Shown piece after piece: positions 32,933 to 53,722 of a DNA stretch of 64,000 nucleotides. Numbering within the stretch: position 1 is the first letter of the stretch; each line of letters begins with the position of its first letter. The position numbers and the translations under genes were made by a program. The notes under the pieces were generated by a model. That model was not told the DNA's origin, did no database searches, and worked only from the letters and a program-made list of their open reading frames with translations. The stretch spans positions 186,001 through 250,000 of the forward strand of contig NZ_FQYP01000009.1 in NCBI RefSeq assembly GCF_900141785.1, given 5' to 3'. The DNA is from Aquimarina spongiae (GTDB lineage: Bacteria; Bacteroidota; Bacteroidia; Flavobacteriales; Flavobacteriaceae).

Positions 32933-33055
32933 ATACACTAGGATGAAATCCCTTATTTTAACTTAGCAAAATGTTAAATGATATGATGATCTTAGAATTA
33001 ACAGTGAGTTAAAACAATTTTGCGTACCATTGTGGAAATTATATGTGGTAAAAAC

Positions 33056-34727: not shown

Positions 34728-34739
34728 TCTATAGCAATC

Positions 34740-36965: not shown

Positions 36966-37265
36966 ACAACAATTTTAATAAAAATACACGGATTGCGTAG
37001 GGGTAATACCCATTATATCAATGACCGACCAATTGTATTTTTACGTTTGAGTCCCTTAATTTTCTCAACCGAACTGAAGAAAAAAAAGCATTTTCTTGTT
37101 TTAAGAGGTTCTTAAATTTAATGAAAATCTGGGATTTATTCGAATAATGATAGCGGTACTTTAATGAATTCTAATAGTTTTGAAGGATAAATACCTGCAT
37201 TTACGCTAATTTTATTTTCTAAACTTGAGAGGTTAGAAAGCGATTACCATAAACAAAGCATATTT
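36966..37265. other. Divergent intergenic region between hybrid kinase and pbpC
   Basis: 300 bp with no gene. I find no exact TAnnTTTG box facing either gene and no inverted repeat longer than a few bases; it presumably holds both promoters in weaker form. Confidence 0.4.
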
Positions 37266-39617
37266 GTGTTTCAGAGAATAAAGACATACATCAAAAACCA
37301 CCCTAAACGTATTGTATTAATAACCATTTTATTGGTGTGGTATTACTTTTCTCTTCCGTCCACATTGTTTAAAGATCCCACGGCAACGGTAGTAGAATCT
37401 GTAGATGGTGAGTTGGTTGGAGCCAAAATAGCAAAGGACGGACAATGGCGTTTTCCGGAAACAGACAGTGTACCTACAAAGTTTGCAAAGTGCATAATTG
37501 CTTTTGAAGACCAGCAGTTTTACAACCATCCCGGATTCAATCCTATTGCAATTGTAGATGCTATGATCGATAATAGTAAAGCAGGTAAAATTGTAAGAGG
37601 AGGAAGTACTTTAACACAACAGGTGATTCGACTATCCAGAAAGGGAAAAAAAAGAACATACTTTGAAAAACTAAAGGAACTCATTTTAGCTACTCGCTTA
37701 GAGTGGGGTAAATCAAAGTCCGACATCCTCAAACTATATGCTTCTCATGCTCCTTTTGGAGGAAACGTTGTTGGGGTCGATATGGCAGCATGGCGTTACT
37801 TTGGGTTGCCTGCGCATCAGCTTTCCTGGGCAGAAAGTGCAACCTTGGCTGTTTTACCCAACGCACCTTCATTGATTTATCCCGGAAAGAATCAAGAGCG
37901 ATTGCTGAAGAAAAGGAATCGATTATTAAAAACATTACTAGAACAGCAGACTATTGATTCATTGACCTATACGCTTTCCATTCAAGAAACTTTACCGCAA
38001 AGGCCATACAGGTTGCCACAGATTGCTCCACATTTGGTGGATAACATTGCAAAAAAACATAAAGGAGAAAGAGTGCAAACTACACTCCGATTAGCGCTTC
38101 AAAAACAAGTCAATGACATTGTAAAAAAACATTATGATCAGCTTCGTCAAAATGAGGTGTATAACATGGCGGTTTTGGTCTTGGATGTAGAAACCAGAAA
38201 TGTATTGAGTTATGTTGGGAACACTCCCACAGATAAGACGCATCAAAAAGATGTGGATATTATACAGGCCCCTCGAAGCACAGGGAGTACTTTAAAACCA
38301 TTATTGTACGCAGCGATGATGGATAAAGGAGAGTTGTTGCCAGAACAATTGGTATCCGATATCCCAACAGTAATAGCAGGGTATAATCCCAAAAACTTCG
38401 ATGAAACCTATAGTGGAGCCGTACCAGCAAATAGGGCATTGGCAAGATCGCTTAATGTGCCCGCAGTACGATTATTACAACAATATGGATTACAGCGTTT
38501 TCGAGATGAGTTGAATGCGTTTCAAATCAAAGATATTCAGTATAGTGCAGATCATTATGGGTTATCCTTGATAGTTGGAGGTGCAGAAGCTAACCTTTGG
38601 GATCTGTGTAAAACTTATGCAGGGATGGCAGGAACGCTGAACCATTTTTTGGAGTCTTCGAGTGAATATTTTACCAATGAATTTGCAGAACCTATCCTTG
38701 AAAAGAATAGTGAGGTTGATTTTGGGAAACCAATCAAAGAAAAATTGATTTTTGGAGCAGGAAGTATTTGGCTCACTTTTGAAGCCATGAAAGAGGTAAA
38801 CCGTCCCGAAGGAGATGATGCTTGGGAATTCTATGATTCTTCCAAAGAAATTGCTTGGAAAACAGGTACCAGTTATGGTAATCGCGATGCATGGGCGATA
38901 GGTGCTACTTCAAAATATGTGGTTGGAGTATGGATCGGAAATGCCGATGGAGAAGGTCGTCCAGAAGTTACTGGCCTAACTGCTGCAGCACCTGTGCTCT
39001 TTGATGTGTTTAATATTGTTCCGGATACAAAATGGTTTGCAACTCCATACGACGATTTGGTTACGACAACAGTATGTGCTCAAAGTGGTCATATAGCTGG
39101 AGAGCATTGTCCTAAAAAAACTATTAATGTTTCGCTTTCTGGAACCAAAACAGAACCTTGTACTTATCATCGATTAATTCATTTGGACAAAGAGCGGAGG
39201 TATCAGGTAAATTCCTCTTGCGAATCTGTAGATAATATGATTCATGAGTCGTGGTTTGTATTACCATCATTGCAAGCATACTATTTCAAAAATAACAATG
39301 CTGATTATCATGAATTACCTTCGTTTCTTCCTGGTTGTAGTACCGTAGATGAAGATCGAATGGATTTTATTTTTCCCAAAGCCAATAGCAGTGTCTACTT
39401 GCCTAAAGGTTTTGATGGTAAAACCAACGAAGTTGTTCTTAAAATTGCACATACCAATCCAGAGGCACAAGTATTCTGGTACGTCGATGAGCAGTTTGTT
39501 GGAGCAACCCGGCAATTTCATGAAATGCCAATCCTACCCGAGCCAGGGAAACATCTGATCACTATTCTGGATGAAAATGGAAATGAGTTAAAGCGGGTTT
39601 TGGAAGTGAAGGAATAG
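37266..39617 (+). CDS. pbpC: Penicillin-binding protein 1C
   Basis: PbpC combines peptidoglycan glycosyltransferase and transpeptidase-like domains anchored in the inner membrane. The 783-residue protein starts with GTG and has a membrane anchor (about 15-32), the GT51 site AFEDQQFYNHPG (near residue 80), the transpeptidase motifs S341TLK and K532TG, and a C-terminal PBP1C domain with conserved Cys. It is the partner expected for the macroglobulin gene upstream. Expression by its own promoter is likely, as the kinase gene is divergent. Confidence 0.94.
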   Translation: MFQRIKTYIKNHPKRIVLITILLVWYYFSLPSTLFKDPTATVVESVDGELVGAKIAKDGQWRFPETDSVPTKFAKCIIAFEDQQFYNHPGFNPIAIVDAMIDNSKAGKIVRGGSTLTQQVIRLSRKGKKRTYFEKLKELILATRLEWGKSKSDILKLYASHAPFGGNVVGVDMAAWRYFGLPAHQLSWAESATLAVLPNAPSLIYPGKNQERLLKKRNRLLKTLLEQQTIDSLTYTLSIQETLPQRPYRLPQIAPHLVDNIAKKHKGERVQTTLRLALQKQVNDIVKKHYDQLRQNEVYNMAVLVLDVETRNVLSYVGNTPTDKTHQKDVDIIQAPRSTGSTLKPLLYAAMMDKGELLPEQLVSDIPTVIAGYNPKNFDETYSGAVPANRALARSLNVPAVRLLQQYGLQRFRDELNAFQIKDIQYSADHYGLSLIVGGAEANLWDLCKTYAGMAGTLNHFLESSSEYFTNEFAEPILEKNSEVDFGKPIKEKLIFGAGSIWLTFEAMKEVNRPEGDDAWEFYDSSKEIAWKTGTSYGNRDAWAIGATSKYVVGVWIGNADGEGRPEVTGLTAAAPVLFDVFNIVPDTKWFATPYDDLVTTTVCAQSGHIAGEHCPKKTINVSLSGTKTEPCTYHRLIHLDKERRYQVNSSCESVDNMIHESWFVLPSLQAYYFKNNNADYHELPSFLPGCSTVDEDRMDFIFPKANSSVYLPKGFDGKTNEVVLKIAHTNPEAQVFWYVDEQFVGATRQFHEMPILPEPGKHLITILDENGNELKRVLEVKE

Positions 39618-39702: not shown

Positions 39703-39710
39703 TATATTTG
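39703..39710 (+). promoter_or_regulatory. -7 box of the acyl-CoA operon
   Basis: TATATTTG matches TAnnTTTG. A TTG at 39678-39680 lies 22 bp upstream. The box overlaps a possible TTG start at 39708, which moves the probable start to the GTG at 39726. Confidence 0.65.
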
Positions 39711-39725
39711 AGTAAAAAGGAATAC

Positions 39726-40379
39726 GTGGAAACGAAACAAAGGATACTCAGTCAGGCGCTTAAGGCCTTCAATAAATCGGGATACGGTGCAGTAAATCTA
39801 TTCGAACTTGCAAAATCTTTGGAGATGAGCAGAGGTAATATGACTTATCATTTCAAGGATAAAGAAGCCTTGTTGAAAGCATTGATGGACCAATTATGGG
39901 AAAAGCTAACTAGTGGGCGAGTGGCAAAGGGGATTCCTTCATTTCAGAACTTGCATCACGATGCACAATTGTATTATAAGCTGCAAAAAGAATACTCTTT
40001 TATATTTCATGATAACCAGGTGTTGAAACACAAACTGATTGCACCAAAAATGAAATCCCTTTGTGATAAAACGGTAAAGGATATCGAAACAGCAATTGCA
40101 TTTTCTATCCAGTTAGGAAATATGCAAACAGAACCAGTACCTGGGGTGTACAAAAACCTGGCATTAACATCTTGGATGATGATGTTTTTTTGGTCATCAC
40201 AGCAAATGATTCGAGGAGATAAAACGAAAGAAGATGGAGAGAAGGTAATTTGGAGTTTGTTACTGCCTCATCTTACGGAAAAGGGATTGGCTTCCTTCAA
40301 AAAATTCTTTGGAGATGCTTATTTGGATAGTTTGGGCGAAGGATTTGATCAAACTATGGAATCGTATATCAACTTTTAA
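39726..40379 (+). CDS. TetR-family transcriptional regulator
   Basis: The 218-residue protein has an N-terminal helix-turn-helix (KQRILSQALKAFNKSGYGAV, then LFELAKSLEMSRGNMTYHF-K-D-K-E) typical of TetR regulators, and a helical ligand-binding C-terminal part with little family similarity. I chose the GTG at 39726 because the earlier TTG at 39708 lies inside the -7 box. It is first in the acyl-CoA operon, 9 bp upstream of the ligase, and a perfect palindrome lies upstream. The expected role is repression relieved by an acyl-CoA or substrate, as with AtuR/LiuR-like regulators (inference). Confidence 0.9.
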   Translation: METKQRILSQALKAFNKSGYGAVNLFELAKSLEMSRGNMTYHFKDKEALLKALMDQLWEKLTSGRVAKGIPSFQNLHHDAQLYYKLQKEYSFIFHDNQVLKHKLIAPKMKSLCDKTVKDIETAIAFSIQLGNMQTEPVPGVYKNLALTSWMMMFFWSSQQMIRGDKTKEDGEKVIWSLLLPHLTEKGLASFKKFFGDAYLDSLGEGFDQTMESYINF

Positions 40380-40388
40380 ACTTCAGAT

Positions 40389-42077
40389 ATGGCTAGCATC
40401 GGTATTCCAGATCATGATTCACTCCCAGAGTATTTTTATCATTGGGTGCAGGAAAAGCCTGATGCTCCATTCTTAAAACAACCAAAAGGAACACATTGGA
40501 AAATAGTAACCTTTGGTGAAGCCTACGAGCAGGCTTCAAAAATGGCAAATGCTTTGATCTCTATAGGTTTAAAAAAAGGAGATCATGTAGCCATTTATTC
40601 CAAAAACTGTTATCATTGGATTCTGGCAGATTTGGCCATAATGATGTGTGGGATGGTTTCGGTACCCTTATATCACAACCTTTCTGCAAACCAACTTTCT
40701 ACAGTACTACAGTTGGCTGATGCAAAAGCAGTTTTTATAGGTAAGCTTGATCAATGGTTAGCTCATCCAGAGCATGTACCTAATGATGTTCAAATTATAC
40801 GTTTTCCGTATTATCAAGGCAATGCAGAAGTAACTGAAGGTGTTTTGTGGGACGATTTGGTGAATAGTAATGAACTATTACCAGAAGTTCATGTTCCGGA
40901 TCCAGAAGAACTATGGACCATTTTGTTTACCTCTGGCACTACAGGTACACCAAAAGGAGTAATGCATATCCATAATACTCCGGTGCAGATTATTAAGGAC
41001 GACAGTAAGAATGATTGGGTAGGGATCGCTAAGCATCCAACACCTAATTTATTATCGTATTTGCCGCTAAATCATGTTGCCGAAAAAATAGGAGTATATG
41101 CTGTAGCACTAATGCTTGGTGGAACTGTTTCTTTTGGAGAGAGCATCGATACTTTTGCCAAAAATTTACAAGATACACAACCTACGATCTTTTTTGCAGT
41201 GCCCAGAATTTGGACCAAATTTTATCTTGCAGTTGCCAACAAAATGTCATTAAAAAAACAGAAGCTGCTGTTTAGCATTCCGATCATCTCTGGGATTCTG
41301 AAAAGGAAAATACGATATGGTTTAGGATTGTCGAAAGCCAAAATAGTGGCTACAGGATCTGCGATTACACCCACCTATCTCAAAGTATGGTATGCCGGTC
41401 TGGGGATTCATCTTATCGAAGCCTATGGGATGACCGAAGTTTGTGGTTCGATTACCAATACGCCCATGCTAGATGCACCTAAAGATTCCGTGGGAAAACC
41501 CATCCCAGGTTGTGAGATAAAAATCGCAAAGGATACACAAGAGGTATTAATGAAATCCCCTTATATGATGAAAGGGTACTACAAAGATCCAGAAATGACA
41601 GCAAAAGTGCTAAAGAATGGATGGCTCCATAGCGGTGATAAAGGGAGTTTTGATGAGAATGGTTTCCTAAAAATCATAGGTAGAGTTTCTGATGCTTTTA
41701 AAACAAGCAAAGGAAAATACATTACACCCAATCCTCTCGAAGAAGAAATAGAGAAAAATGTATTAATAGAACAAGTATGTATTGCTGGTTTAGGCATTCC
41801 CCAACCCATTGCGATTGTGAATCTTTCTGAAGTTGCACATGCAACTCCAAAAGAAGAAGTTGAGGTAGCACTGGATCAAACACTTTCCAAATTGAATGAT
41901 ACTTTGGCAAATTATACAAGAGTATCCACCATTGTTATCGATCAGAATACCTGGAATATGGAAAATGCATTCCTTACACCAACATTAAAAATCAGAAGAG
42001 GAGAGATCGATAGGCGATATAGCAAGTACTTTTTGGAGTGGCATGATCGTAATGAAAATATAGTTTGGTATGAGTAA
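40389..42077 (+). CDS. AMP-dependent acyl-CoA ligase
   Basis: Activates a carboxylic acid to acyl-CoA via acyl-AMP. The 562-residue protein shows the AMP-binding loop LFTSGTTGTPKGVMH (near residue 180), the IEAYGMTEVCG motif and the C-terminal hinge motif LHSGDKGSFDENGFLKIIGRVSD with FKTSKGKYI. Size and motifs fit long-chain/very-long-chain ligases (FadD15-like). It overlaps the SDR gene by 8 bp. The substrate cannot be read directly, but it is likely the entry enzyme of the pathway encoded downstream. Confidence 0.93.
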   Translation: MASIGIPDHDSLPEYFYHWVQEKPDAPFLKQPKGTHWKIVTFGEAYEQASKMANALISIGLKKGDHVAIYSKNCYHWILADLAIMMCGMVSVPLYHNLSANQLSTVLQLADAKAVFIGKLDQWLAHPEHVPNDVQIIRFPYYQGNAEVTEGVLWDDLVNSNELLPEVHVPDPEELWTILFTSGTTGTPKGVMHIHNTPVQIIKDDSKNDWVGIAKHPTPNLLSYLPLNHVAEKIGVYAVALMLGGTVSFGESIDTFAKNLQDTQPTIFFAVPRIWTKFYLAVANKMSLKKQKLLFSIPIISGILKRKIRYGLGLSKAKIVATGSAITPTYLKVWYAGLGIHLIEAYGMTEVCGSITNTPMLDAPKDSVGKPIPGCEIKIAKDTQEVLMKSPYMMKGYYKDPEMTAKVLKNGWLHSGDKGSFDENGFLKIIGRVSDAFKTSKGKYITPNPLEEEIEKNVLIEQVCIAGLGIPQPIAIVNLSEVAHATPKEEVEVALDQTLSKLNDTLANYTRVSTIVIDQNTWNMENAFLTPTLKIRRGEIDRRYSKYFLEWHDRNENIVWYE

Positions 42078-42864
42078 AATGGCGCTGATATCAGGAGGTT
42101 CTAGTGGCATCGGGTATTCCCTATCCAGATATTTTGCAAAGGCAGGATACACCCTTCTTTGGGTTTCTCTTTTGCCAGAAGAAATTGAAGTGTCGAAGAA
42201 AAAACTATTGCAAGAAATCGAAGGATGCACGATACATACTCTTGTTGAAGATTTGTCAATAACAAATGCAGCACATAAAGTGCATCAATGGGTTACTAAA
42301 AACGAATGGAGTATTGATGTACTAGTGAATAATGCAGGATTTGGTACCTATGGATATTTGAGCAATACACCTCTAGAAAAAGAACTCAAGATGGTTCATC
42401 TCCATGTGGTATGTGTGTATGAAATGACCAAGTTGTTTCTGAAAGATATGACTAACAAAAACAAGGGGACTATTATCAACATTAGTTCGAATAGTTCTTT
42501 CCAACCAACTCCCAAATTAAGCACTTATGGAGCCACAAAAGCATTTGTTACCCATTTCAGTCGAAGTTTAAATGAAGAATTGAAAATGCAGCAATCGAAG
42601 GTAAAAGTAATTTGTGTATGTCCCGCGGCCATCGAGAATACCAACTTCAAGAAATCAGGGAATATGGAAAAGGTAAGAACGTTTCAAGGTATCGCTGCAA
42701 CAACAGTAGAAGAGGTAGCCAGTGATATCTGGAAAGGGTTTAGTGGCGGAAAAGATTTTATCATAAGTGGTAGAAAGATGAGAATGTTATACCGAATCTC
42801 TGGATTACTTCCCTATAGATTTCAACAGTTTTTAGTCAGAAAAGAAATTAAAGAAATAGCATAA
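42070..42864 (+). CDS. Short-chain dehydrogenase/reductase
   Basis: The 264-residue protein has the SDR cofactor motif LISGGSSGIG, NNAG (about residue 93), and an intact catalytic S-x-Y-x-x-x-K (SSNSSF, then TYGATKAF). The lack of an acidic residue after beta-2 (LLWVSLLPEE) suggests NADP use. It overlaps the ligase stop by 8 bp and its TAATG end shares a base with the carboxylase start, so translation is coupled. It could oxidise a hydroxyacyl intermediate or an alcohol substrate. Confidence 0.9.
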   Translation: MSKMALISGGSSGIGYSLSRYFAKAGYTLLWVSLLPEEIEVSKKKLLQEIEGCTIHTLVEDLSITNAAHKVHQWVTKNEWSIDVLVNNAGFGTYGYLSNTPLEKELKMVHLHVVCVYEMTKLFLKDMTNKNKGTIINISSNSSFQPTPKLSTYGATKAFVTHFSRSLNEELKMQQSKVKVICVCPAAIENTNFKKSGNMEKVRTFQGIAATTVEEVASDIWKGFSGGKDFIISGRKMRMLYRISGLLPYRFQQFLVRKEIKEIA

Positions 42865-44465
42865 TGAGGCCCTTATCATCTACAATTAATACGACAAGTG
42901 AAGCTTTCCGGAAAAATAAGAAAGCCATGCTCGATTTGGTTGCCAAATTAGAGGAACATCTTAAAGAAAGTCGATTTCAAGGGAAGGAAAAATCCATTGA
43001 TAAAGCCAGGAGCAGAGGCAAATTACTCGCACGAGAACGAATCGAATTGTTGTTGGACAAAGACAGTCCTTTTTTAGAACTATTACCACTAGCGGGTATG
43101 CAAAATAAGAATGGTTTTGGGGCTGGTGGAACCAACGTTTCAGGAATCGGGTTGGTACAAGGTAAATTGTGCATGATCAATGCCAATGTAGGAACGCGTA
43201 AAGGAGGATCTGTAGACTATGCAACGGTTTTTAAGGGTTTCCGCATCGCAAAAATTACCAGAGAATGTAGATTGCCTTCTATCAATTTGGTAGAAAGTGG
43301 CGGGGCTAACCTCCCGGACCAGGCCAAAATATTCAATTATGGAGGTGAAGCCTTCAAAGAGATTACCAGACGATCTGAAATGGGCATTCCAACAATATCT
43401 GTAGTATTTGGTAATGCTACGGCAGGGGGAGCGTATGTGCCAGGGATGTCCGACTATGCCATTTTTCAAAAGCAAGCTGCAAAAGTATTCTTGGCGGGAC
43501 CTCCACTAGTAAAAATGGCAACCAATGAAATTGCAACCGACGAGGAACTAGGTGGTGCCGAAATGCACAGTAGAGTATCTGGAGTTTCAGATTATCTGGC
43601 CGAAGATGAAAAGGACGCTATCCGAATCGCCAGAGAGATTATGGAATTTATACCAGCATCCAATCCTCATATGATCCCAGAATTGCCCATCAAAGCACCG
43701 CTTTTTGATGCCGACGAGATTTTAGGTGTAGTCCCAGAAGATAGTAAAACACCATTTGATGTAAGAGAATTGATCATGCGAATTACAGATGGATCCGAAT
43801 TTGCAGAGTTCAAATCTGAGTATGGAAATACAATGGTCTGCGGGTGGACAAAAATTCATGGATACCCCGTGGGGATTTTAGGAAACAACGGTGTTATTTT
43901 TTCAGAATCCGCCAACAAAGCAGCACAATTTATACAACTATCCAATCAAAAAAACATACCCTTATTGTTTTTGCAGAACACCACTGGATATATGGTGGGT
44001 AAAGCTTATGAAGAAGGAGGAATCATAAAAAATGGAGCTAAGCTGATTAATGCAGTTTCTAATAGCAAAGTGCCATCTATTACCTTAATGATCGGGTCTT
44101 CATTTGGAGCAGGTAATTATGGAATGAACGGTAGATCCTATGAGCCTAATTTTCTCTTTTCTTATCCCAATGCAAAAATAGGAGTCATGGGTTCCCAACA
44201 ATTAGCTGGGGTAATGCGGATCATTCAAAAAGCATCGGCAAAAGCCAAAGGAATACCCTATGACGAAGAGCAAGCTAAAATGATCGAAAATATGTTAATC
44301 GCCGAAGCCGAAGCAAAATCTTCTGCGTGGCATTCTACCTCAGAATTATGGGATGATGGGATTATTAATCCTAAAGAAACACGCAATTATTTAGGGTTTT
44401 CACTAGCGGTTTTATACAACCAAGAAATAAAAGGGTCAAATAGTTATGGTGTCTGGAGGCATTAA
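42864..44465 (+). CDS. Acyl-CoA carboxylase, beta (carboxyltransferase) subunit
   Basis: This subunit transfers CO2 from carboxybiotin to an acyl-CoA. The 533-residue protein has both crotonase-like halves with VESGGANLPDQ, NATAGGAYVPGMSDY, LAGPPLVKMATNE, the GGAEMHSRVSG segment and, in the second half, GSSFGAGNYGMNGR and GVMGSQQLAGVM. The ATDEELGGAEMH run and the SDY motif resemble methylcrotonyl-/geranyl-CoA carboxylases more than propionyl-CoA carboxylase. Start and the SDR stop overlap by 1 bp. The alpha subunit gene follows. Confidence 0.93.
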   Translation: MRPLSSTINTTSEAFRKNKKAMLDLVAKLEEHLKESRFQGKEKSIDKARSRGKLLARERIELLLDKDSPFLELLPLAGMQNKNGFGAGGTNVSGIGLVQGKLCMINANVGTRKGGSVDYATVFKGFRIAKITRECRLPSINLVESGGANLPDQAKIFNYGGEAFKEITRRSEMGIPTISVVFGNATAGGAYVPGMSDYAIFQKQAAKVFLAGPPLVKMATNEIATDEELGGAEMHSRVSGVSDYLAEDEKDAIRIAREIMEFIPASNPHMIPELPIKAPLFDADEILGVVPEDSKTPFDVRELIMRITDGSEFAEFKSEYGNTMVCGWTKIHGYPVGILGNNGVIFSESANKAAQFIQLSNQKNIPLLFLQNTTGYMVGKAYEEGGIIKNGAKLINAVSNSKVPSITLMIGSSFGAGNYGMNGRSYEPNFLFSYPNAKIGVMGSQQLAGVMRIIQKASAKAKGIPYDEEQAKMIENMLIAEAEAKSSAWHSTSELWDDGIINPKETRNYLGFSLAVLYNQEIKGSNSYGVWRH

Positions 44466-44486
44466 GAAAAAAGGAACATATTGTAT

Positions 44487-46466
44487 ATGAAAAGTATAAA
44501 CACCATATTGATTGCTAATCGGGGAGAAATCGCTTCAAGAGTGATACGTACCTGCAAAAAAATGGGAATTACTAGTGTAGCGGTCTATGCTGATGCCGAT
44601 AAAAATGCCCCATTCGTTAGACAAGCAGATTTAGCAGTACATATCGGAGCTTCAGAACCGTCACAATCCTATCTCGATCAAGATAAAATAATTGCTGCTG
44701 CAAAACGTACAGGTGCCGATGCTATCCATCCGGGTTATGGTTTTTTGTCTGAAAATGCAGATTTTGCCAGATTATGTAAAGCTGAAGGAATCATTTTTAT
44801 CGGTCCCAACCCAGAGGCTATAGCAGCAATGGGATCAAAATCCAAGGCCAAAGCAATGATGAAACGGGCAGGGGTGCCTGTTGTACCCGGTTATGATGGT
44901 GAAGATCAATCCGAAGCTACATTAAAGACCGAAGCTTTAAAAATAGGATTTCCAGTATTACTGAAAGCCACCGCAGGAGGTGGAGGTAAAGGGATGAGAA
45001 TTGTTCATGAAGAAAAAGAAATAACGACAGCCATTGCTTCGGCAAAAAGAGAAGCCAAAAATGCCTTTGGAGATGATGAATTGCTTATCGAAAAATACAT
45101 TGCCTCTGGAAGACATATCGAATTTCAGATTTTTGGAGATCAGCATAAGCATGTCATTCATTTACTGGAAAGAGAATGTTCAATCCAAAGACGTTATCAA
45201 AAAGTGATTGAAGAAAGCCCTTCTCCGATAATGACAGAAGCTCTGCGGAAGTCTATGGGTGATGCCGCGGTACTTGCAGCCCAAGCTATGGATTATGATA
45301 ATGCGGGAACTGTAGAATTTATTTATGACGATACTTCTGGAGCATTCTACTTTTTGGAGATCAATACCAGATTACAAGTAGAACACCCTGTTACCGAGGC
45401 TATAACCGGGTTGGATATGGTGCAAATGCAAATCCAATCTGCACAAGGCACTCCTTTGCAAATCACTCAAGAAGAGGTGGTAGGAAATGGCTATGCTATT
45501 GAAGCGCGGTTGTACGCAGAAGATGCAGCAAATAATTACGCACCTGTAACCGGGAAAATTCACAATTACCAATTCCCAGATGTAGATGGATTACGGGTGG
45601 AGTCTGCTATTGAGTCAGGCTCAGAAATATCAATATTCTATGATCCAATGATCGCGAAGATCATTGTAAAAGATAGTAATAGGATCAATGCGCATACTAA
45701 ATTGCTGTATGTGCTTCAGCAATTTATATGTCAGGGTATTGTAACCAATTTACCTTTCCTGAAAACGCTGTTGCAACATGAAGATTTTCAGAAAGGAAAT
45801 TACAATACGCATTTCGTTCAGGAAAAGATTGACCTTTCTCAAATCAATAAAATATCAGATCAACAGATACAGGAAGTGGCTATAGTCGCAACGCTATATG
45901 ATTGGAATAAGCGAGAACAATCGAGGAAGACACTTCGAAGTCTTCCTTCTGGATGGAGGAATAATTGTTACCAATATCAAAAGGAAGTTTTTCATATTGG
46001 TGAACAGGTTGTTCAATTGCAGTATCAGTATGTAGAAGATGGTTTTGTATTTCTTTTTGAAGACAAGGAAAGAAAGGTAGCGATGATAGGTATTGATGAA
46101 ACCACCTTGTGCATAGATATAGATGGATTGCAAAAAACGTATGCTGTTGCGAAGGTTGGAGAGGATTATTTTGTGCATTCGCCTACCATAGGTAATGTGA
46201 AAATTACTCAAGAAGATCGATTCCCGATCAAAGAAAAGGAAAAGGTAAGCGGAGGGTATGAATCCCCAATTCCGTCTCAAGTGGTTAAAATTAATATCCA
46301 ATCAGGAGATGCTATCAAAGAAGGTGATCCACTTATCGTTTTGTCTTCAATGAAAATGGAAAACGTTTTGGTAGCTAATCAGGATGGTAAAGTAGAAGAG
46401 ATATATGTAGCCGAAGGACAGAATGTAGAAGCTGGATTTTTATTACTGAAAATTAATGAAGAATAA
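44487..46466 (+). CDS. Acyl-CoA carboxylase, biotin-containing alpha subunit
   Basis: The 659-residue protein (ATG at 44487; TTG at 44481 also open) has a biotin carboxylase domain (ILIANRGEIASRVIRTC at the N-terminus, ATP-grasp loop KATAGGGGKGMRI, ERECSIQRRYQKVIEE, FLEINTRLQVEHPVTE), a middle BT-like region, and a C-terminal biotinyl domain with M-K623-M, the Lys carrying biotin 36 residues before the end. This is the full-length form of MCC/GCC-type alpha subunits and pairs with the preceding beta subunit. Confidence 0.95.
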   Translation: MKSINTILIANRGEIASRVIRTCKKMGITSVAVYADADKNAPFVRQADLAVHIGASEPSQSYLDQDKIIAAAKRTGADAIHPGYGFLSENADFARLCKAEGIIFIGPNPEAIAAMGSKSKAKAMMKRAGVPVVPGYDGEDQSEATLKTEALKIGFPVLLKATAGGGGKGMRIVHEEKEITTAIASAKREAKNAFGDDELLIEKYIASGRHIEFQIFGDQHKHVIHLLERECSIQRRYQKVIEESPSPIMTEALRKSMGDAAVLAAQAMDYDNAGTVEFIYDDTSGAFYFLEINTRLQVEHPVTEAITGLDMVQMQIQSAQGTPLQITQEEVVGNGYAIEARLYAEDAANNYAPVTGKIHNYQFPDVDGLRVESAIESGSEISIFYDPMIAKIIVKDSNRINAHTKLLYVLQQFICQGIVTNLPFLKTLLQHEDFQKGNYNTHFVQEKIDLSQINKISDQQIQEVAIVATLYDWNKREQSRKTLRSLPSGWRNNCYQYQKEVFHIGEQVVQLQYQYVEDGFVFLFEDKERKVAMIGIDETTLCIDIDGLQKTYAVAKVGEDYFVHSPTIGNVKITQEDRFPIKEKEKVSGGYESPIPSQVVKINIQSGDAIKEGDPLIVLSSMKMENVLVANQDGKVEEIYVAEGQNVEAGFLLLKINEE

Positions 46467-46468
46467 TC

Positions 46469-47287
46469 ATGGATTTTTTTGAAAAGGAACTCTTAGAAAA
46501 GGCATTAGCGCAAAAATTCGCATTTATCTTGGTAACGGTTGAAGATCATGTAATGACGTTAACACTAAATCGACCGGAAAAGAAGAATGCATTACATCCA
46601 CATATGATTCACGAAATTGCCTTTGCGCTGCAATATGCCAACCAAACCAAAGAGATATGGGTGGTTATGATTCGCGCTGCTGGTGATGTCTTTTGCTCGG
46701 GTGCGGATTTGAAGGCTTTTATGGGCATGGTGGGTGAGTTTGATTCCTCAATCCCCGAAGCCAAGGGAGAAGTGCTTTTAGGAGAGCTTTTTGGTAAAAC
46801 TCATAAACCCATAATTACTTTGGTAGAAGGCAGGGTAATGGCCGGAGGTTTCTTTTTTCTTACCGGGGCACACTATGTGGTATGTAACCCAGAAGTCACA
46901 TTGGATTTGCCAGAAGTAAAGAGAGGATTATTTCCCTTCCAAGTAATGGCTTCGTTGCTAGAGGTAATGCCAAAGCGCATCGTCATAGATTGGTGCATAA
47001 GAGGATATAATCTAGGCGTACAAGAAGCCAAAAACTATGGCTTGATTACTCATATAGCAAATCAAGAATCTGCAGTTCAGATTGCGAATAGCATCATTAA
47101 TGATATCAAAGAAAATTCTCCAACTGCAATTCGGCATGGTTTGGAAGCCTTGGATGCTATTACACAACACGAATCCAAGCATCAGTATTTGATGGAAATG
47201 CTACAGAAAACTATAGGTTCCAAAGATGGTCAGGAGGGGTTATTAGCCTTTAGACAAAAAAGAAAACCCGAATGGACCGGAGAATAA
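46469..47287 (+). CDS. Enoyl-CoA hydratase/isomerase family protein
   Basis: The 272-residue crotonase-fold protein contains LNRPEKKNALHPHMI, CSGADLKAF (oxyanion-hole strand), VEGRVMAGGFFFLTGAHYVV and DLPEVKRGLFPFQVM, whose Glu is at the catalytic position of hydratases. In the Pseudomonas atu and liu clusters a member of this family hydrates the carboxylated glutaconyl-CoA product, and the position right after the carboxylase genes fits that use. The exact substrate is unproved. It begins 2 bp after the alpha-subunit stop. Confidence 0.9.
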   Translation: MDFFEKELLEKALAQKFAFILVTVEDHVMTLTLNRPEKKNALHPHMIHEIAFALQYANQTKEIWVVMIRAAGDVFCSGADLKAFMGMVGEFDSSIPEAKGEVLLGELFGKTHKPIITLVEGRVMAGGFFFLTGAHYVVCNPEVTLDLPEVKRGLFPFQVMASLLEVMPKRIVIDWCIRGYNLGVQEAKNYGLITHIANQESAVQIANSIINDIKENSPTAIRHGLEALDAITQHESKHQYLMEMLQKTIGSKDGQEGLLAFRQKRKPEWTGE

Positions 47288-47309
47288 GGTATAACGAAAT
47301 GAAAAAGAT

Positions 47310-48179
47310 ATGGCTTTACAAAAATTGATTCTTTCTGCGGCACTAACAGGTGCAGCGACCAACAGGTCTCATTGCCCTCACATTCCTTATACTCCCGAAG
47401 AGTTGGGATTGGAGGCCAAAAGAGCAGTTGATGCTGGAGCAGCGATAGTACACATCCATGCACGAGAAGATAATGGACTACCTAGTTGGAGAACTGAAGT
47501 ATTTGAAGAAATCACTACCGAAGTACGCAAACATTGCCCGGATGTAATTATCAACTATTCTACTGGGGCCATCGGATTGTCTATCGAAGATCGATTAAAA
47601 CATTTGCCAGCTACTCAGCCTGATATGGCTGCTTTTAATATGGGCAGTATGAACTACGCTATATTCTCCAAACGAAATAAGCAGTTTATCTGGAATGGTG
47701 TGTTCGAAAATTCATTCGATGATATGATCAAAGTGGTCACTACTATGAACGAGCATAATATCTGTCCGGAGATGGAATGTTTTGATACCGGGCATATTCG
47801 AAATGCAGAACCGCTTCGCGAAATGGGTTTGTTGCCAGATAATGCATGCTATAGTTTGGTTATGGGAGTTATGGGAGGAATTCCTGCAACCCCAGAGAAT
47901 TTAATACATCAAATCAAGCAGATTCCTGAGGGTGCTTTTTGGCAATCTATCGTGATTAGCCGCAAGCAATGGCAACTCTCTGCTATTGCAGCTGCTATGG
48001 GCGGGAATTTCAGAGTGGGATTAGAAGATAATTTTTATTTACCCAATGGAGAGATGGCCAAATCGAATGGAGAATTGGTAGAAGCAGGAGCCACGTTGGC
48101 CCAAATGATCGGTCGAGAGATCGCCAGTATCGAAGAGGCCAGAGAACTATTGAACATTCCGAAAAAAATCAACTCATAA
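47310..48179 (+). CDS. BKACE-family (beta-keto acid cleavage) enzyme
   Basis: BKACE proteins (3-keto-5-aminohexanoate cleavage enzyme, Kce-like, DUF849) are zinc TIM barrels that condense a beta-keto acid with acetyl-CoA to give acetoacetate plus the shortened acyl-CoA. The 289-residue protein has the Zn ligands H48-I-H50 (VHIHARED), INYSTG, ECFDTGHI and the third ligand in VGLEDNFYL. All three are intact. It starts 22 bp after the hydratase. Its presence in a carboxylase operon is unusual and is discussed as a finding. Confidence 0.93.
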   Translation: MALQKLILSAALTGAATNRSHCPHIPYTPEELGLEAKRAVDAGAAIVHIHAREDNGLPSWRTEVFEEITTEVRKHCPDVIINYSTGAIGLSIEDRLKHLPATQPDMAAFNMGSMNYAIFSKRNKQFIWNGVFENSFDDMIKVVTTMNEHNICPEMECFDTGHIRNAEPLREMGLLPDNACYSLVMGVMGGIPATPENLIHQIKQIPEGAFWQSIVISRKQWQLSAIAAAMGGNFRVGLEDNFYLPNGEMAKSNGELVEAGATLAQMIGREIASIEEARELLNIPKKINS

Positions 48180-48181
48180 TT

Positions 48182-48988
48182 ATGCTTAGATCAGACACAT
48201 TCAACGCTAAAATCGTATTGGTAACCGGAGGAAGATCAGGCATTGGTTTTCAGATTGCAAAGGACTTTTTACAACTGGGTGCTAAGGTGATTATTTGTTC
48301 TCGTAAAGAAGAACAGCTACAAAAGGCAGCCGAAGAATTATCAAACTTTGGAGAAGTTACTCATCAGGCTTGTGATATTCGAAAAACCGAAGAGATACAA
48401 CAATTGGCCAAAATGATTAAAGAAAAATATGGTCGATTGGATATCCTGATCAATAATGCAGGAGGGCAGTTTCCCGCACTGGCAGAATATATTAATGACA
48501 AAGGGTGGAATGCGGTAATCAACAATAACCTGAATGGAACGTTCTCTATGATTCGAGAAATGGCAAATACATTTTTTATTCCTCAAAAAAGTGGAGTGAT
48601 CATTAATATTATCGTAGATGTATTTCGTGGATTTCCAGGAATGGCGCATACAGGAGCAGCTAGAGCCGGAGTTGAGAATTTGACCAAAACGCTAGCTATG
48701 GAATGGAGCGATTTTAATATCAGAATCAATTGTGTGGCTCCAGGAATTATAGAATCCAGTGGTTTGGATACTTATCCAAAACAGATACAAGATATGTTTG
48801 AAGAGGCGCAAAAAGCCATCCCTTTAAAACGTTTCGGAAAGGTGGAGGATGTGTCGAATGCTGTGACCTTTTTATCGAGCCCTATGGCTGAATACATTAC
48901 CGGAATCTCATTATATGTAGATGGTGCGCAGCATCTCAATTTTGATAAGATGGGATTAGCAAATGTTTTAAAATCATTTATCTCATAA
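48182..48988 (+). CDS. SDR family protein, PECR/AtuG-like, with altered catalytic residues
   Basis: The 268-residue Rossmann protein has the cofactor site VTGGRSGIG, CSRKEEQ (Arg for NADP), INNAGGQFPA, and CVAPG, like peroxisomal trans-2-enoyl-CoA reductase (PECR). At the place of the usual Y-x-x-x-K it reads H-T-G-A-A-R-A-G, with no Tyr and with Arg for Lys, a replacement also known in PECR. It may therefore reduce an enoyl-CoA rather than oxidise a hydroxyl. It starts 2 bp after the BKACE stop. Confidence 0.88.
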   Translation: MLRSDTFNAKIVLVTGGRSGIGFQIAKDFLQLGAKVIICSRKEEQLQKAAEELSNFGEVTHQACDIRKTEEIQQLAKMIKEKYGRLDILINNAGGQFPALAEYINDKGWNAVINNNLNGTFSMIREMANTFFIPQKSGVIINIIVDVFRGFPGMAHTGAARAGVENLTKTLAMEWSDFNIRINCVAPGIIESSGLDTYPKQIQDMFEEAQKAIPLKRFGKVEDVSNAVTFLSSPMAEYITGISLYVDGAQHLNFDKMGLANVLKSFIS

Positions 48989-48991
48989 CCG

Positions 48992-50770
48992 ATGGAATCA
49001 AAAGTAACCATGATCAAAGGGGGAGAGTTTTTAATCAAGGGAGCCGAACCTGAAACGGTTTTTACTCCAGAGGAGTATTCCGAAGAGCGTCAGATGCTAC
49101 GAGAAGCGATTCGTGACTTCATAAATAAGGAAATAGAGCCTTTAAAAGAAGCATTCGATAGCAAAGAAGGAACAAAATTAGCTCCAGAAAAGCTGGAGAA
49201 ATTAGGTGAACTGGGTTTTTTGGCCATTTCGGTACCTGAAGAATCTGGAGGTATGGGATGTGATATCAAAACCGATCTAGCGGCTTCAGAAGTAATGTCT
49301 GATAGCTATTCTTTTTCTCAAACACTTGGTGTACAAAGAGGATTAGGGGTCAATACCATTTTGTTTTATGGTACAGATCAGCAAAAAGCCAAATATCTAG
49401 ACGGTATTCTAACCGGAAAATTAAAATGCTCGTATTGCTTAACAGAGCCTAATGCCGGGTCTGATGCGAACTCGGGAAAAACACATGCTACTCTTAGTGA
49501 TGACCAAAAACATTATATCCTTAACGGACAGAAAATGTGGATCACGAATGCTGGTTTTGCAGATGTATTTTCGGTATTCTGCAAAATCGAAGACGACGAA
49601 AATCTATCTTGCTTACTGGTAGAAAAAGATTGGGGAGTACAATTGGGAGTCGAGGAAAACAAGTTAGGGATTCATGGATCTTCTACGAGGCAGGTCTTCT
49701 TTGAAAATGTAAAAGTACCTGTAGAGAATTTATTAGGAGAACGCAATAAAGGCTTCAAAATCGCCATGAATGCGCTTAATATGGGGCGGTTAATGATTGG
49801 GGTCGCAGGATCGGCTATATCCAAAAGAGCATTTCATCTTGGGGTGCAGTACGCCAATCAACGTGTTCAGTTTAAGCAAACTATCGCTTCTTTTGGTGCT
49901 ATCCAGGAAAAAATAGCCAAAATGGGAATCAATATCTATGCTTTAGAATCCGGTTGGAATCGATTGGGAGGAGATATGGATGTGCTTTATAGCCAGTTTA
50001 TAGATACCGGAACGCCACCACTAAAGGCTAAACAACAAGTTGCGCAGGAGTTTGCAGCAGAATGTGCCATTATAAAAGTCTTTGGATCCGAAATCGAACA
50101 GTTTGTGGTAGACGAAGCCCTTCAAATTCATGGAGGAATGGGCTTTTCTGGAGAAAGTGAAATCTCTATGCATTATAGAAATATACGAGGTAATCGGATT
50201 TATGAAGGGACCAATGAGATCAATCGATTAGTAATCCCTGGAACGATACTTAAATATGCTTTAAAAGGAAAGTTGCCATTGATGCAAGCAGCCATGCAGG
50301 CATTTCAAGAGGTGCAATCTGGAAACAATACTCCTATTGATCCAGACTTACCATTGAAAGAATTTGCCGTCGGTTTTCTCGAACATTGTAAAAAATCAAT
50401 CTTACTGATCAGTGGATTGGCGATGCAAAAGTTTCAACAAGAAATTCAGGAAGAACAAGAAGTGTTGTCCCGACTTGCCGATATGATTATTCAGATCTAT
50501 ATGATGGAGTCGGTGTTACTTAGAACACTTAAGGGTAATGGACAACATCAGGAAATTAAGGAAGCAATATCTGTTGTTTTTATGAACGAAGCTACGGATA
50601 AGATTAAGATAGCGCTCAAAGAAGTTGCCTATAAAGCTGCTGATAAAGAAATGGTTCAAAAAACCATAGCAGCTACAGATCAATTAATGCAATTACCGGT
50701 TGTTGATATTATTGTCCTACGTAGAAAAATTGCATCTCATTTTATTCAGGAAAATCAATATAAAATCTAA
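48992..50770 (+). CDS. Acyl-CoA dehydrogenase with C-terminal extension
   Basis: FAD-dependent desaturation of acyl-CoA. The 592-residue protein has the standard dehydrogenase core (about 25-420: YCLTEPNAGSDANSGKTHA, WITNAG, GIHGSSTRQV, then GGMGFSGESE near residue 382 and RIYEGTNEINRL) followed by a helical extension of about 180 residues, as in VLCAD-like enzymes common in Bacteroidota. The catalytic base is probably in the EGTNEI region. It begins 3 bp after the SDR stop and precedes a second, SCP2-fused dehydrogenase. Confidence 0.93.
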   Translation: MESKVTMIKGGEFLIKGAEPETVFTPEEYSEERQMLREAIRDFINKEIEPLKEAFDSKEGTKLAPEKLEKLGELGFLAISVPEESGGMGCDIKTDLAASEVMSDSYSFSQTLGVQRGLGVNTILFYGTDQQKAKYLDGILTGKLKCSYCLTEPNAGSDANSGKTHATLSDDQKHYILNGQKMWITNAGFADVFSVFCKIEDDENLSCLLVEKDWGVQLGVEENKLGIHGSSTRQVFFENVKVPVENLLGERNKGFKIAMNALNMGRLMIGVAGSAISKRAFHLGVQYANQRVQFKQTIASFGAIQEKIAKMGINIYALESGWNRLGGDMDVLYSQFIDTGTPPLKAKQQVAQEFAAECAIIKVFGSEIEQFVVDEALQIHGGMGFSGESEISMHYRNIRGNRIYEGTNEINRLVIPGTILKYALKGKLPLMQAAMQAFQEVQSGNNTPIDPDLPLKEFAVGFLEHCKKSILLISGLAMQKFQQEIQEEQEVLSRLADMIIQIYMMESVLLRTLKGNGQHQEIKEAISVVFMNEATDKIKIALKEVAYKAADKEMVQKTIAATDQLMQLPVVDIIVLRRKIASHFIQENQYKI

Positions 50771-50781
50771 ACCATTACGTC

Positions 50782-52281
50782 ATGAACAGTTATTATTTTG
50801 ATGAAGGACATACTTTGTTTCGGGAGAGTCTGAAAGCGTTTCTACAGAAAGAAGTAGTGCCAAATATCGATCAATGGGAAGAGGATCGTCGTATTCCCAG
50901 AGAAGTATGGCAAAAAATGGGAGACATGGGTTTTTTAGGATTATCCTATCCCGAAGAGTTTGGGGGTGCAAATCTTGATTTCTTTTATGATGTGATCTTT
51001 TGTGAAGAGATTGCAAAGGTATTTTCAGGAGGATTTGCGATTACCCAGGCGGTGGTACAATACATGTCGGGACCTTATATTTTGAAATATGGGTCACAAC
51101 GATTAAAAGAAAAATACCTTCCTGGAATCATTTCGGGAGAAAAAATCAGCTGTATAGGGATCTCAGAACCTACTGCAGGCTCTGATGTGGCTAATATTAA
51201 AACCACTGCAATTTTGCAAGGAGATCACTATGTAGTAAATGGTTCTAAAACCTTTATTACAAATGCTGTATATGGAGATTTTGTGGTCTGTGTAGTTAAA
51301 ACCGACCCCAAAGCTGGTCCCGAAGGGGTAAGTTTATTGATTGTGGATTTGGATAGAGAAGGAGTAAGTAAAACAAAGCTCAAAAAACTGGGATGGCATG
51401 CCTCTGATACCGCAGAATTGGCCTTTGATAATGTGAAAATTCCTAAAGAAAACCTGATTGGAGAAGAGGGACAAGGGTTTTATTATTTGATGGGAGGCTT
51501 ACAAGTAGAGCGACTGGTAGGTGCGATAATGGGATATGGTGCTTGCGAAGCTGCAATGCAATATACCCTTCAATATATGTCAGAAAGATCTGCTTTTGGA
51601 AGGCCGATTAATAAGTTTCAAGTACTACGACATCGAATGGCGCAATTGGCTTCAGAAATCGAATCCTGTAAGCAGTTTGTGTTGTACTGTTCGCGGTTAA
51701 ATAACGATAAGAAATACGCTGTAAAAGAATGTTCCATGGCTAAGCTTTTGGCTACTGAGTTATCTGATAAAACCATGACCCAATGTTTGCAATCTTTTGG
51801 GGGTTACGGATATATGGAAGAGTTTAAGATTGCAAGAATGTTTCGGGATAGTAGAATCGGAACAATTGGCGGAGGGACCTCAGAGATTATGCGGGAGATT
51901 ATTGCAAAAATGGTGATCGACGACGTATCTTACAAACAAGCAGAAAAGAATGATTCAATTAATAATACCAATACTAATATTATGAGTAATATAGACAGTA
52001 TCCTGCAAACGATTCAGGAAAGAGCAGCAAAGGCAGATAGCCTAAAAAATACCTTAAAGTTCAACTTTGGAGATGAACAGTTATATATCGATGGTACGGG
52101 AGACACAAACGTGGTCACTGCAGAAGATAAAGATGCAGATTGCCAGGTAGATGTAGGATTTGATGATTTTATGTCGTTGATCAAAGGAGAACTTAACCCG
52201 ATGGCGGCTGTTATGGGTGGAAAAATAAAGATTAAAGGAGATATGGGAGTGGCCATGAAGCTTCAATCCTTGTTCTCATAA
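50782..52281 (+). CDS. Acyl-CoA dehydrogenase fused to an SCP2 sterol-carrier domain
   Basis: Residues about 5-385 are a complete acyl-CoA dehydrogenase (CIGISEPTAGSDVANIKT, FITNAVYG, GWHASDTAELAF, FGGYGYMEE, IGGGTSEIMREI). A short Asn/Thr-rich linker (about 388-400) leads to a second domain (401-499) with FNFGDEQLYIDG, DCQVDVGFDDFMSLIKGELNP and GGKIKIKGDMGVAMKLQ, which is a full SCP2 lipid-binding domain. An in-frame ATG at residue 401 (base 51982) could also give SCP2 alone. SCP2 domains bind sterols, branched or long acyl chains, so the fusion hints at a bulky hydrophobic substrate. Confidence 0.93.
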   Translation: MNSYYFDEGHTLFRESLKAFLQKEVVPNIDQWEEDRRIPREVWQKMGDMGFLGLSYPEEFGGANLDFFYDVIFCEEIAKVFSGGFAITQAVVQYMSGPYILKYGSQRLKEKYLPGIISGEKISCIGISEPTAGSDVANIKTTAILQGDHYVVNGSKTFITNAVYGDFVVCVVKTDPKAGPEGVSLLIVDLDREGVSKTKLKKLGWHASDTAELAFDNVKIPKENLIGEEGQGFYYLMGGLQVERLVGAIMGYGACEAAMQYTLQYMSERSAFGRPINKFQVLRHRMAQLASEIESCKQFVLYCSRLNNDKKYAVKECSMAKLLATELSDKTMTQCLQSFGGYGYMEEFKIARMFRDSRIGTIGGGTSEIMREIIAKMVIDDVSYKQAEKNDSINNTNTNIMSNIDSILQTIQERAAKADSLKNTLKFNFGDEQLYIDGTGDTNVVTAEDKDADCQVDVGFDDFMSLIKGELNPMAAVMGGKIKIKGDMGVAMKLQSLFS

Positions 52282-52300
52282 TGTTTTAGCATCGCGAATC

Positions 52301-53722
52301 ATGGTTACTTCATTTAATGAAACCGATATCGCTGTAATTGATGCTATTTATGATCAACAAAAAGCGAATTACAGGCAAGTAGGAAAGACAACAGCACGAG
52401 AGCGAATTCGAAAGCTAAAAGCGTTTGAAAAGGCAATTTTACGTTTTCGAGTGGACTTACAAGAGGCTATGAAAAAAGATTTTCATAAGCCTGCTGCTGA
52501 GGTGGATCTTACTGAGATTTATCCAGTACTTTCTGAAATACGATTTGCGATCAAACATCTAAAAGATTGGATGCGTCCCAAAAAAGTTCCGCATCCAACA
52601 CCTATGATAGGCTCATCCTCCTGGGTGCGGTATGAACCTAAGGGAATGAGCCTGATTATAGCACCCTGGAACTACCCGATGCAATTGCTCTTTGCTCCTT
52701 TGGTCTCTGCTATCGCAGCAGGGAATGTGGTGATGCTTAAACCTTCAGAGTTTACTTCGCATACGGTAGAAGTGATGAAGCAAATCATTGCAAATTGTTT
52801 TGAAGAACATGAAATCGCCATTGTAGAAGGAGGTGTTGAGGTGTCAAAAGCGTTGTTAGCCAAAAAGTTCCATCATATTTTCTTTACCGGAGCACCCGAA
52901 ATTGGTAAAATTATAATGGCTACTGCTTCCAAACATCTTTGTAGCGTTACATTAGAGTTAGGGGGCAAATCTCCTACTATTATTGATGAAACGGTTAATA
53001 TTAAAACGATCGTTTCAAGAGTTGCTTGGGCAAAATATGTAAATGCAGGGCAGGTATGCATCGCTCCGGATTATGTGTTGATACATGAAAGCAAGAAAGC
53101 AGAATTTATACAGCATCTTTGCGCCCAAATTCAAAAGCAATACGGGAAAGACGCCATAGATTCTCCAGATTATTTACGTATCATTAATCAAAAGCATTTT
53201 TTGCGATTGAAAGGGTATCTCGAAAAAGCAGTACTTGGTGGTGCAAAGGTAATTTACGGAGGAACAATGGATGAAACCCAAAATTATATAGAACCGACTA
53301 TTATCACTGATATGTCTGTGGATTCTGATGTGTTGAAGCACGAAATTTTTGGCCCGATTCTTCCTATACTTTCTTATCGTGATAAAGAAGAAGTAATTGA
53401 TTTTGTAAATCGTAAAGAAAAGCCTTTGGCTCTTTATATTTACAGCAGCAACAAAAAGAATATCAACTATTTTGTCGAAAATACTACTGCAGGAGCGACC
53501 TGTGTCAATATGTCTTCTGTACATGTAGGTAATCCTAATTTACCATTTGGAGGAGTAAATAATAGTGGTATTGGTAAATCCAGAGGACATTATGGATTTA
53601 TCGAATTTACCAACGAACGCGCAATGTTCAAGCAACGGTTACCTAGCGCAATCGAATTGATGACACCTCCTTATACAGCGTTTAAACAAAAATTGATTGA
53701 TTTGACGATTAAGTATTTCTAG
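52301..53722 (+). CDS. Aldehyde dehydrogenase (class 3 / fatty aldehyde type)
   Basis: NAD(P)-dependent oxidation of an aldehyde to the acid. The 473-residue protein has PWNYPMQLL, the NAD-binding FTGAPEIGKIIM, catalytic Glu in LELGGKSPTII and the nucleophile Cys in AGQVCIAPDYVL, followed by EIFGPILPI. There is no N-terminal extension, and the C-terminal hydrophobic end is like class 3 (fatty or coniferyl aldehyde) enzymes. It starts 20 bp after the SCP2-fused gene and ends the operon. It would feed the acid to the ligase at the start of the operon. Confidence 0.94.
   Translation: MVTSFNETDIAVIDAIYDQQKANYRQVGKTTARERIRKLKAFEKAILRFRVDLQEAMKKDFHKPAAEVDLTEIYPVLSEIRFAIKHLKDWMRPKKVPHPTPMIGSSSWVRYEPKGMSLIIAPWNYPMQLLFAPLVSAIAAGNVVMLKPSEFTSHTVEVMKQIIANCFEEHEIAIVEGGVEVSKALLAKKFHHIFFTGAPEIGKIIMATASKHLCSVTLELGGKSPTIIDETVNIKTIVSRVAWAKYVNAGQVCIAPDYVLIHESKKAEFIQHLCAQIQKQYGKDAIDSPDYLRIINQKHFLRLKGYLEKAVLGGAKVIYGGTMDETQNYIEPTIITDMSVDSDVLKHEIFGPILPILSYRDKEEVIDFVNRKEKPLALYIYSSNKKNINYFVENTTAGATCVNMSSVHVGNPNLPFGGVNNSGIGKSRGHYGFIEFTNERAMFKQRLPSAIELMTPPYTAFKQKLIDLTIKYF

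Follow-up and report, generated by a model that had tools for sequence, protein, structure and literature searches.

The gene at positions 47310–48179 of the window (the whole 64,000-nucleotide stretch of Aquimarina DNA that was analyzed) encodes a genuine beta-keto acid cleavage enzyme (BKACE) that is full length and has its metal ligands and catalytic glutamate intact. The enzyme is a BKACE of an uncharacterized subfamily set in an atu-like pathway, a new combination of known kinds of components. It is probably dedicated to this pathway, which would serve beta-methyl-branched, and probably isoprenoid, acyl chains. The predicted activity is one in which the product of this gene may use a beta-keto acid together with acetyl-CoA. 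A limited literature search found no paper linking geranyl-CoA carboxylase with 3-keto-5-aminohexanoate, and such papers may exist. The observation of the earlier note, a BKACE inside a carboxylase pathway, is confirmed, and its interpretation is partly supported.

The BKACE gene and its operon

The only Pfam match of the 289-residue protein is to PF05853 (321.7 bits against a gathering threshold of 24.8; E = 4.7e-96), which spans residues 5–282 of 289 and profile positions 1–273 of 274. No HMGL-like (DRE-TIM) domain was found in the Pfam search. The AlphaFold2 model, with a pLDDT of 91.9, matches the solved BKACEs 8rio, 3lot, and 2y7f with Z of about 40 and an rmsd of 1.7–2.0 Å over 271–288 residues. 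HMG-CoA lyase (3mp5) matches the same model with a Z of 16.3, a score no better than those of unrelated TIM barrels. The gene is the only one for a BKACE in the 5.35 Mb Aquimarina genome and is the seventh of eleven in a one-strand unit at 39708–53722, where neighboring genes are separated by 2 to 22 bases or overlap slightly. The genes of this operon are as follows.

39708–40379, + strand: TetR-family regulator (PF00440, PF13972)
40389–42077, + strand: AMP-forming acyl-CoA ligase (PF00501, 243 bits)
42070–42864, + strand: SDR1, a short-chain dehydrogenase (PF00106)
42864–44465, + strand: carboxyltransferase beta subunit of the geranyl-CoA carboxylase (GCC) type (best PDB match GCC beta, 5ikl)
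44481–46466, + strand: biotin carboxylase/biotin carrier alpha subunit (best PDB match MCC alpha, 3u9s)
46469–47287, + strand: crotonase-family enoyl-CoA hydratase (PF00378, 130 bits)
47310–48179, + strand: BKACE-family enzyme, 289 residues, ATG start (PF05853, AlphaFold2 model, tree)
48182–48988, + strand: SDR2, resembling enoyl/2,4-dienoyl-CoA reductases and the citronellol-catabolism dehydrogenase 6lln
48992–50770, + strand: acyl-CoA dehydrogenase, FadE-Bacillus/VLCAD-like (NF058590, 616 bits, above cut-off)
50782–52281, + strand: acyl-CoA dehydrogenase with a C-terminal SCP-2 sterol/lipid-transfer domain at residues 406–498 (PF02036, 64.6 bits)
52301–53722, + strand: aldehyde dehydrogenase (PF00171, 317 bits)

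The hydratase scores below the cut-off of the AtuE model NF004227 (92.8 against 426 bits), and AtuA (PF07287) has no match in the Aquimarina genome; the control genomes were silent as well. A CoA-transferase for acetoacetate is present, and no thioesterase appears among the Pfam and NCBIfam matches of the window's operon. The region upstream, at 27404–39617, encodes a bacterial alpha-2-macroglobulin of 1842 residues near a PBP1C-type transglycosylase/transpeptidase; the genes that separate the two are for a TPR hybrid histidine kinase and a split 5'-nucleotidase/phosphoesterase pair.

Eighty related loci were retrieved using patterns from the Aquimarina BKACE, so that the sampling leans to close kin. 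Every one is from Bacteroidota, and the closest hits are Aquimarina species with 89–93% identity. The carboxylase, hydratase, and BKACE genes remain clustered across these loci. In 43 loci the sequence extends 7 kb or more upstream and 3 kb or more downstream; the carboxyltransferase is present in 37 of these, the alpha subunit in 38, the hydratase in 35, SDR2 in 33, and an acyl-CoA dehydrogenase in 37. The placement of the BKACE in a carboxylase operon, as the earlier note had it, is thus borne out by its neighbors, the enoyl-CoA hydratase on one side and an SDR on the other, and by the linkage in 37 of 43 loci. In the window the hydratase gene is followed immediately by the BKACE gene, as it is at most loci that have both. 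An SCP2-like C-terminus on an acyl-CoA dehydrogenase occurs in the window and at 40 related loci, five of which show it weakly. In several Chitinophagales and Saprospiraceae (L017, L022, L024, L066, and L075), the operons are broken by genes for small 23S rRNA intervening-sequence-type proteins (PF05635 for the L017 copy) and similar short inserts that separate pathway genes.

Active site and subfamily of the BKACE

The positions of the active-site residues were read from alignments, and their codons in the window are given below.

47451–47459, + strand: metal-ligand motif H48-I49-H50 (His46 and His48 of Kce), conserved in 81/81
47775–47777, + strand: catalytic Glu156 (the base Glu171 of PdBKACE15, Glu143 of Kce), conserved in 81/81
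48024–48026, + strand: Glu239, third metal ligand (Glu230 of Kce), conserved in 81/81
47631–47657, + strand: signature residues Ala108 and Tyr116, invariant in the family and kept in a sister clade of 55–61% identity
47853–47855, + strand: signature residue Ser182, Gln or Asn in most other BKACEs

The HIH and glutamate ligands that had been called intact are therefore present without exception, as are Arg235, Asp240, and Asn110 (81/81 in the family alignment). The glutamate corresponding to Glu156 is essential in PdBKACE15, where the E171L variant is inactive (PMC11961710).

Set against 25 other sequences of the family and the four solved BKACEs, the group has a signature of its own, composed of Ala108, Tyr116, Ser182, and Gln212. 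Ala108 is replaced by Thr or Ser in the other BKACEs compared, with one exception. Tyr116 is Phe in nearly all of them, and Gln212 is mostly Ala, Ser, Thr, or Cys. Ala16 occupies the position of Glu14 in Kce and is Leu in most of the sister clade, which retains the remaining signature residues. The small side chains in this signature suggest a pocket that is larger and less polar than in other BKACEs. The changes at Ala108, Tyr116, and Ser182 could also mean an altered chemistry.

Phe158 is found at the position of Tyr145 in Kce in 81/81 sequences. A preprint states that every BKACE has Tyr at this position (PMC12871164). This statement fails for many members of the family (L111, L093–L118), and Phe is common among the 25 further BKACEs, including the lysine-type Kce of Acetoanaerobium and the BKACEs encoded beside protocatechuate/maleylacetate genes. 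Phe158 was therefore not counted as telling or family-defining, and the idea that loss of a catalytic tyrosine signals new chemistry was dropped. The same distribution bears on a BsfD-like divergent acyl transfer, in which C-acetylation would be followed by decarboxylation to a 1,3-diketone: BsfD also has Phe here, as do the lysine-type and protocatechuate/maleylacetate-context enzymes, and the operon has no evident use for a diketone, which makes this chemistry very unlikely.

In the phylogenetic tree, the group forms one clade with support of 100/100 on a long stem. The nearest clade is that of 3lot and PdBKACE15, joined weakly (85/69); the Kce proteins and the BKACEs with aromatic-degradation neighbors form clades to which the group does not belong. 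The cut-offs of three NCBIfam models were missed: that of the lysine-fermentation KCE (NF052387, 274.9 against 382 bits), that of the 3,5-dioxohexanoate enzyme (NF053538, 220.2 against 430 bits), and that of the 3-oxoadipate enzyme (NF053568, 198.4 against 350 bits). By its own clade and these three scores, the protein falls into no BKACE subgroup with a known, unrelated function; membership in such a subgroup is what the earlier note had named as speaking against its reading. Longer BKACEs of 455–519 residues, apparently fused, occur in one other Bacteroidota family (L093–L099) and probably represent the ammonia-lyase/Kce fusion known from lysine fermentation.

Carboxylase type, co-occurrence, and the lyase homologue

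The beta subunit of GCC has an active-site Gly without an insertion, whereas that of MCC has a Phe preceded by a three-residue insertion (PMC4673880). When aligned with 5ikl (GCC) and 3u9r (MCC), the operon carboxyltransferase has Gly160 and lacks the three-residue insertion. The Gly/Phe column was located from the alignment, and the residue numbers in PMC4673880 differ slightly from the chain indices. The GCC signature is present in 54 of 54 operon homologues. A carboxyltransferase paralogue on contig 18 of the same genome (L092) agrees with MCC at both points, having the Phe as well as the insertion. These marks place the operon carboxylase with the geranyl-type enzymes, with predicted activity on geranyl-CoA, and the leucine-type enzyme of the genome is a separate one. 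A search of 43 operon genomes with this MCC-type paralogue as the query identified an MCC-type carboxyltransferase in 40, together with propionyl-type matches, and returned the operon-type carboxyltransferase at 39–44% identity in 43 of 43.

These findings weigh on the possibility that the unit is a leucine/isovalerate (liu) operon with a stray BKACE. The gene content is similar and MCC alpha is the nearest match of the alpha subunit, but the carboxyltransferase is GCC-type at 54 of 54 loci, a separate MCC-type paralogue exists, the SCP2-fused and VLCAD-like dehydrogenases suggest long chains, and acetoacetate as the keto acid would make the BKACE reaction a null one; a liu operon is accordingly given very little credence.

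Co-occurrence was evaluated in 149 genomes from one Bacteroidota order. Of these, 41 have a BKACE of this kind and 58 an operon-type carboxyltransferase; both genes are present in 39, the BKACE alone in 2, the carboxylase alone in 19, and neither in 89. The Fisher p of about 5e-19 is indicative only, because the genomes are taken as independent and many are incomplete metagenome-assembled genomes, in which the absence of a gene is weak evidence. The BKACE is almost never found without the geranyl-type carboxylase, which is present in 39 of 41 genomes with the BKACE and in 19 of the other 108. The 19 genomes with the carboxylase and without the BKACE stand against a dedicated role. At ten loci that have the carboxylase cluster and no BKACE, no consistent substitute is found beside the carboxylase; some of the genomes with a geranyl-type carboxyltransferase and no BKACE (L133–L142) have just the pair of carboxylase genes, separated by a small hypothetical gene. 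In Chitinophagaceae-type genomes (L125–L132), the sister BKACE, 55–61% identical, is usually beside a hydratase gene and often beside SDR2, mostly away from carboxylase genes.

A single HMG-CoA lyase homologue is encoded in the Aquimarina genome, standing alone on contig 16 (L090), and scores 198.6 bits against NF004283, below the cut-off of 246 bits. Of the 43 operon genomes, 40 have a homologue, with E values no higher than 2.5e-50. None is encoded in the operon at any of the 80 related loci, which rules out a lyase hidden in the operons of relatives. In the order sample, the lyase homologue is found in 39 of 41 genomes with the BKACE and in 100 of 108 without it (p = 0.73); there is thus no correlation of the kind expected if the BKACE stood in where a lyase is missing. 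Since the lyase is equally common without the BKACE, these numbers permit a coupling of the two and mean that the lyase step is available. In three operon genomes (G018, G024, and G027), which are possibly incomplete, no MCC-type carboxyltransferase was found and the lyase is present, a weak hint that the lyase serves this operon. A location outside the operon is unsurprising, because in Pseudomonas, too, the lyase step of the atu pathway has been ascribed to an enzyme from another operon, LiuE from liu (PMC4097962).

Candidate route, alternatives, and known systems

The genes of the operon can be arranged in a candidate sequence of reactions, which is judged somewhat more likely than not. The aldehyde dehydrogenase and the ligase would provide an acyl-CoA, from which the acyl-CoA dehydrogenases would form a 3-methyl-2-enoyl-CoA. 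The geranyl-type carboxylase would add CO2 onto the methyl branch, and the hydratase would then give 3-hydroxy-3-carboxymethyl-acyl-CoA, HOOC-CH2-C(OH)(R)-CH2-CO-SCoA. HMG-CoA lyase catalyzes the retro-aldol cleavage of HMG-CoA to acetyl-CoA and free acetoacetate. By analogy, the homologue encoded elsewhere in the genome would split the hydrated product, releasing R-CO-CH2-COOH as a free beta-keto acid along with acetyl-CoA. The BKACE, by a Zn/Glu retro-Claisen acyl transfer, would convert R-CO-CH2-COOH and acetyl-CoA to R-CO-SCoA and acetoacetate. The R-CO-SCoA would be two carbons shorter and already activated, and the CoA-transferase could activate the acetoacetate. For a prenyl chain, R-CO-SCoA would be a 4-enoyl-CoA, which one dehydrogenase step would take to a 2,4-dienoyl-CoA that SDR2 may reduce. 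An FMN/OYE-type reductase is encoded in two related clusters (L065 and L130).

Because the products of the lyase are the co-substrates of the BKACE, the BKACE can be placed immediately after the lyase in the route and would need no lyase chemistry. The earlier note saw a conflict because it placed both enzymes at the same step, as competitors for one cut. Of the two explanations that it offered, a pathway that makes a beta-keto acid is the better supported, and another activity for the BKACE is the less supported and keeps a smaller share of the probability. As for the substrate, a branched and perhaps long chain that comes from an alcohol or aldehyde, for example, a prenol or phytol derivative, is indicated by the geranyl-type pocket of the carboxylase, by the VLCAD-like and SCP2-fused dehydrogenases, and by the aldehyde dehydrogenase.

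The BKACE might have normal activity on a keto acid from another source, such as hydrolysis of a 3-oxoacyl-CoA thioester or an oxidized side product, with the link to the carboxylase being one at the level of the pathway. The intact catalytic set agrees with this, the two SDRs of the operon could make ketones, and the BKACE-hydratase(-SDR2) unit of the Chitinophagaceae-type genomes is often away from the carboxylase genes. The near restriction of the BKACE to genomes with the geranyl-type carboxylase (39 of 41) and the lack of a thioesterase in the window's operon argue against it, and such a source is judged unlikely.

A still less probable alternative is that the BKACE replaces the lyase, with a Zn-assisted retro-aldol cleavage of 3-hydroxy-3-carboxymethyl-acyl-CoA via Glu156, perhaps followed by acyl transfer in the same site. 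The intermediate after retro-aldol cleavage would correspond to the normal BKACE ternary complex, and the absence of an operon lyase, the position directly after the hydratase, and the family-specific active-site residues would all suit such a reaction. It would be new to the fold and would make the BKACE a nonhomologous substitute for HMG-CoA lyase, with one enzyme freeing both acetoacetate and the chain-shortened acyl-CoA. Against it, a lyase homologue is nearly always encoded elsewhere in the genome, HMG-CoA lyase is only a generic TIM-barrel match to the model, and the Tyr-to-Phe change, a possible hint of new chemistry, is common in other BKACEs. We know of no DUF849 enzyme that makes a lyase-type cut.

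If the route through a lyase and then the BKACE is correct, the atu-type pathway gains an ending: a single step that consumes no ATP would both reactivate and shorten the free beta-keto acid, with the acetyl-CoA from the same lyase cut as co-substrate. This would bear directly on a long-standing question about the atu lyase, whose released fragment is acetate in EC 4.1.3.26 as written but could instead be acetyl-CoA. The BKACE family, several groups of which have no assigned substrate, would gain a subfamily that is recognizable by sequence and that likely acts on a bulky hydrophobic compound. A capacity for degradation of isoprenoids or branched lipids is suggested for Aquimarina, Gelidibacter, Saprospiraceae, Chitinophagales, and Crocinitomicaceae.

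The operon shares with the Pseudomonas atu system the geranyl-type carboxylase pair, a hydratase, a ligase, acyl-CoA dehydrogenases, and an SDR related to the citronellol-catabolism dehydrogenase. It differs in having the BKACE and the SCP2-fused and VLCAD-like dehydrogenases, and in a hydratase below the AtuE cut-off. The logic of carboxylase and hydratase is that of the liu pathway; unlike in liu, the operon is without a lyase and the carboxyltransferase is not of the MCC type. The BKACE resembles Kce in fold (Z of 39–40), in the HxH...E metal site, and in the equivalents of Glu143, Arg226, and Asp231, at about 37% identity over the structural alignment; Glu14, Thr106, Gln170, and Phe114 of Kce are replaced by Ala16, Ala108, Ser182, and Tyr116. 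PdBKACE15 of Paracoccus denitrificans (8rio, 8rip, and 9hnf) shares the fold (Z of 40.5) and the catalytic Glu171, and its substrates include the hydrophobic keto acids beta-ketohexanoate and beta-ketopentanoate (PMC11961710). It is 33–34% identical, has Tyr173 in place of Phe158 and a longer loop after the Ala108–Tyr116 region, and, unlike the Aquimarina enzyme, has a genetic context of aromatic degradation. In the oxidative deoxyribonate pathway, which differs from the Aquimarina operon in its polar substrate and in having no carboxylase, a BKACE encoded in a catabolic operon converts a free keto acid and acetyl-CoA to an acyl-CoA and acetoacetate (PMC6365646).
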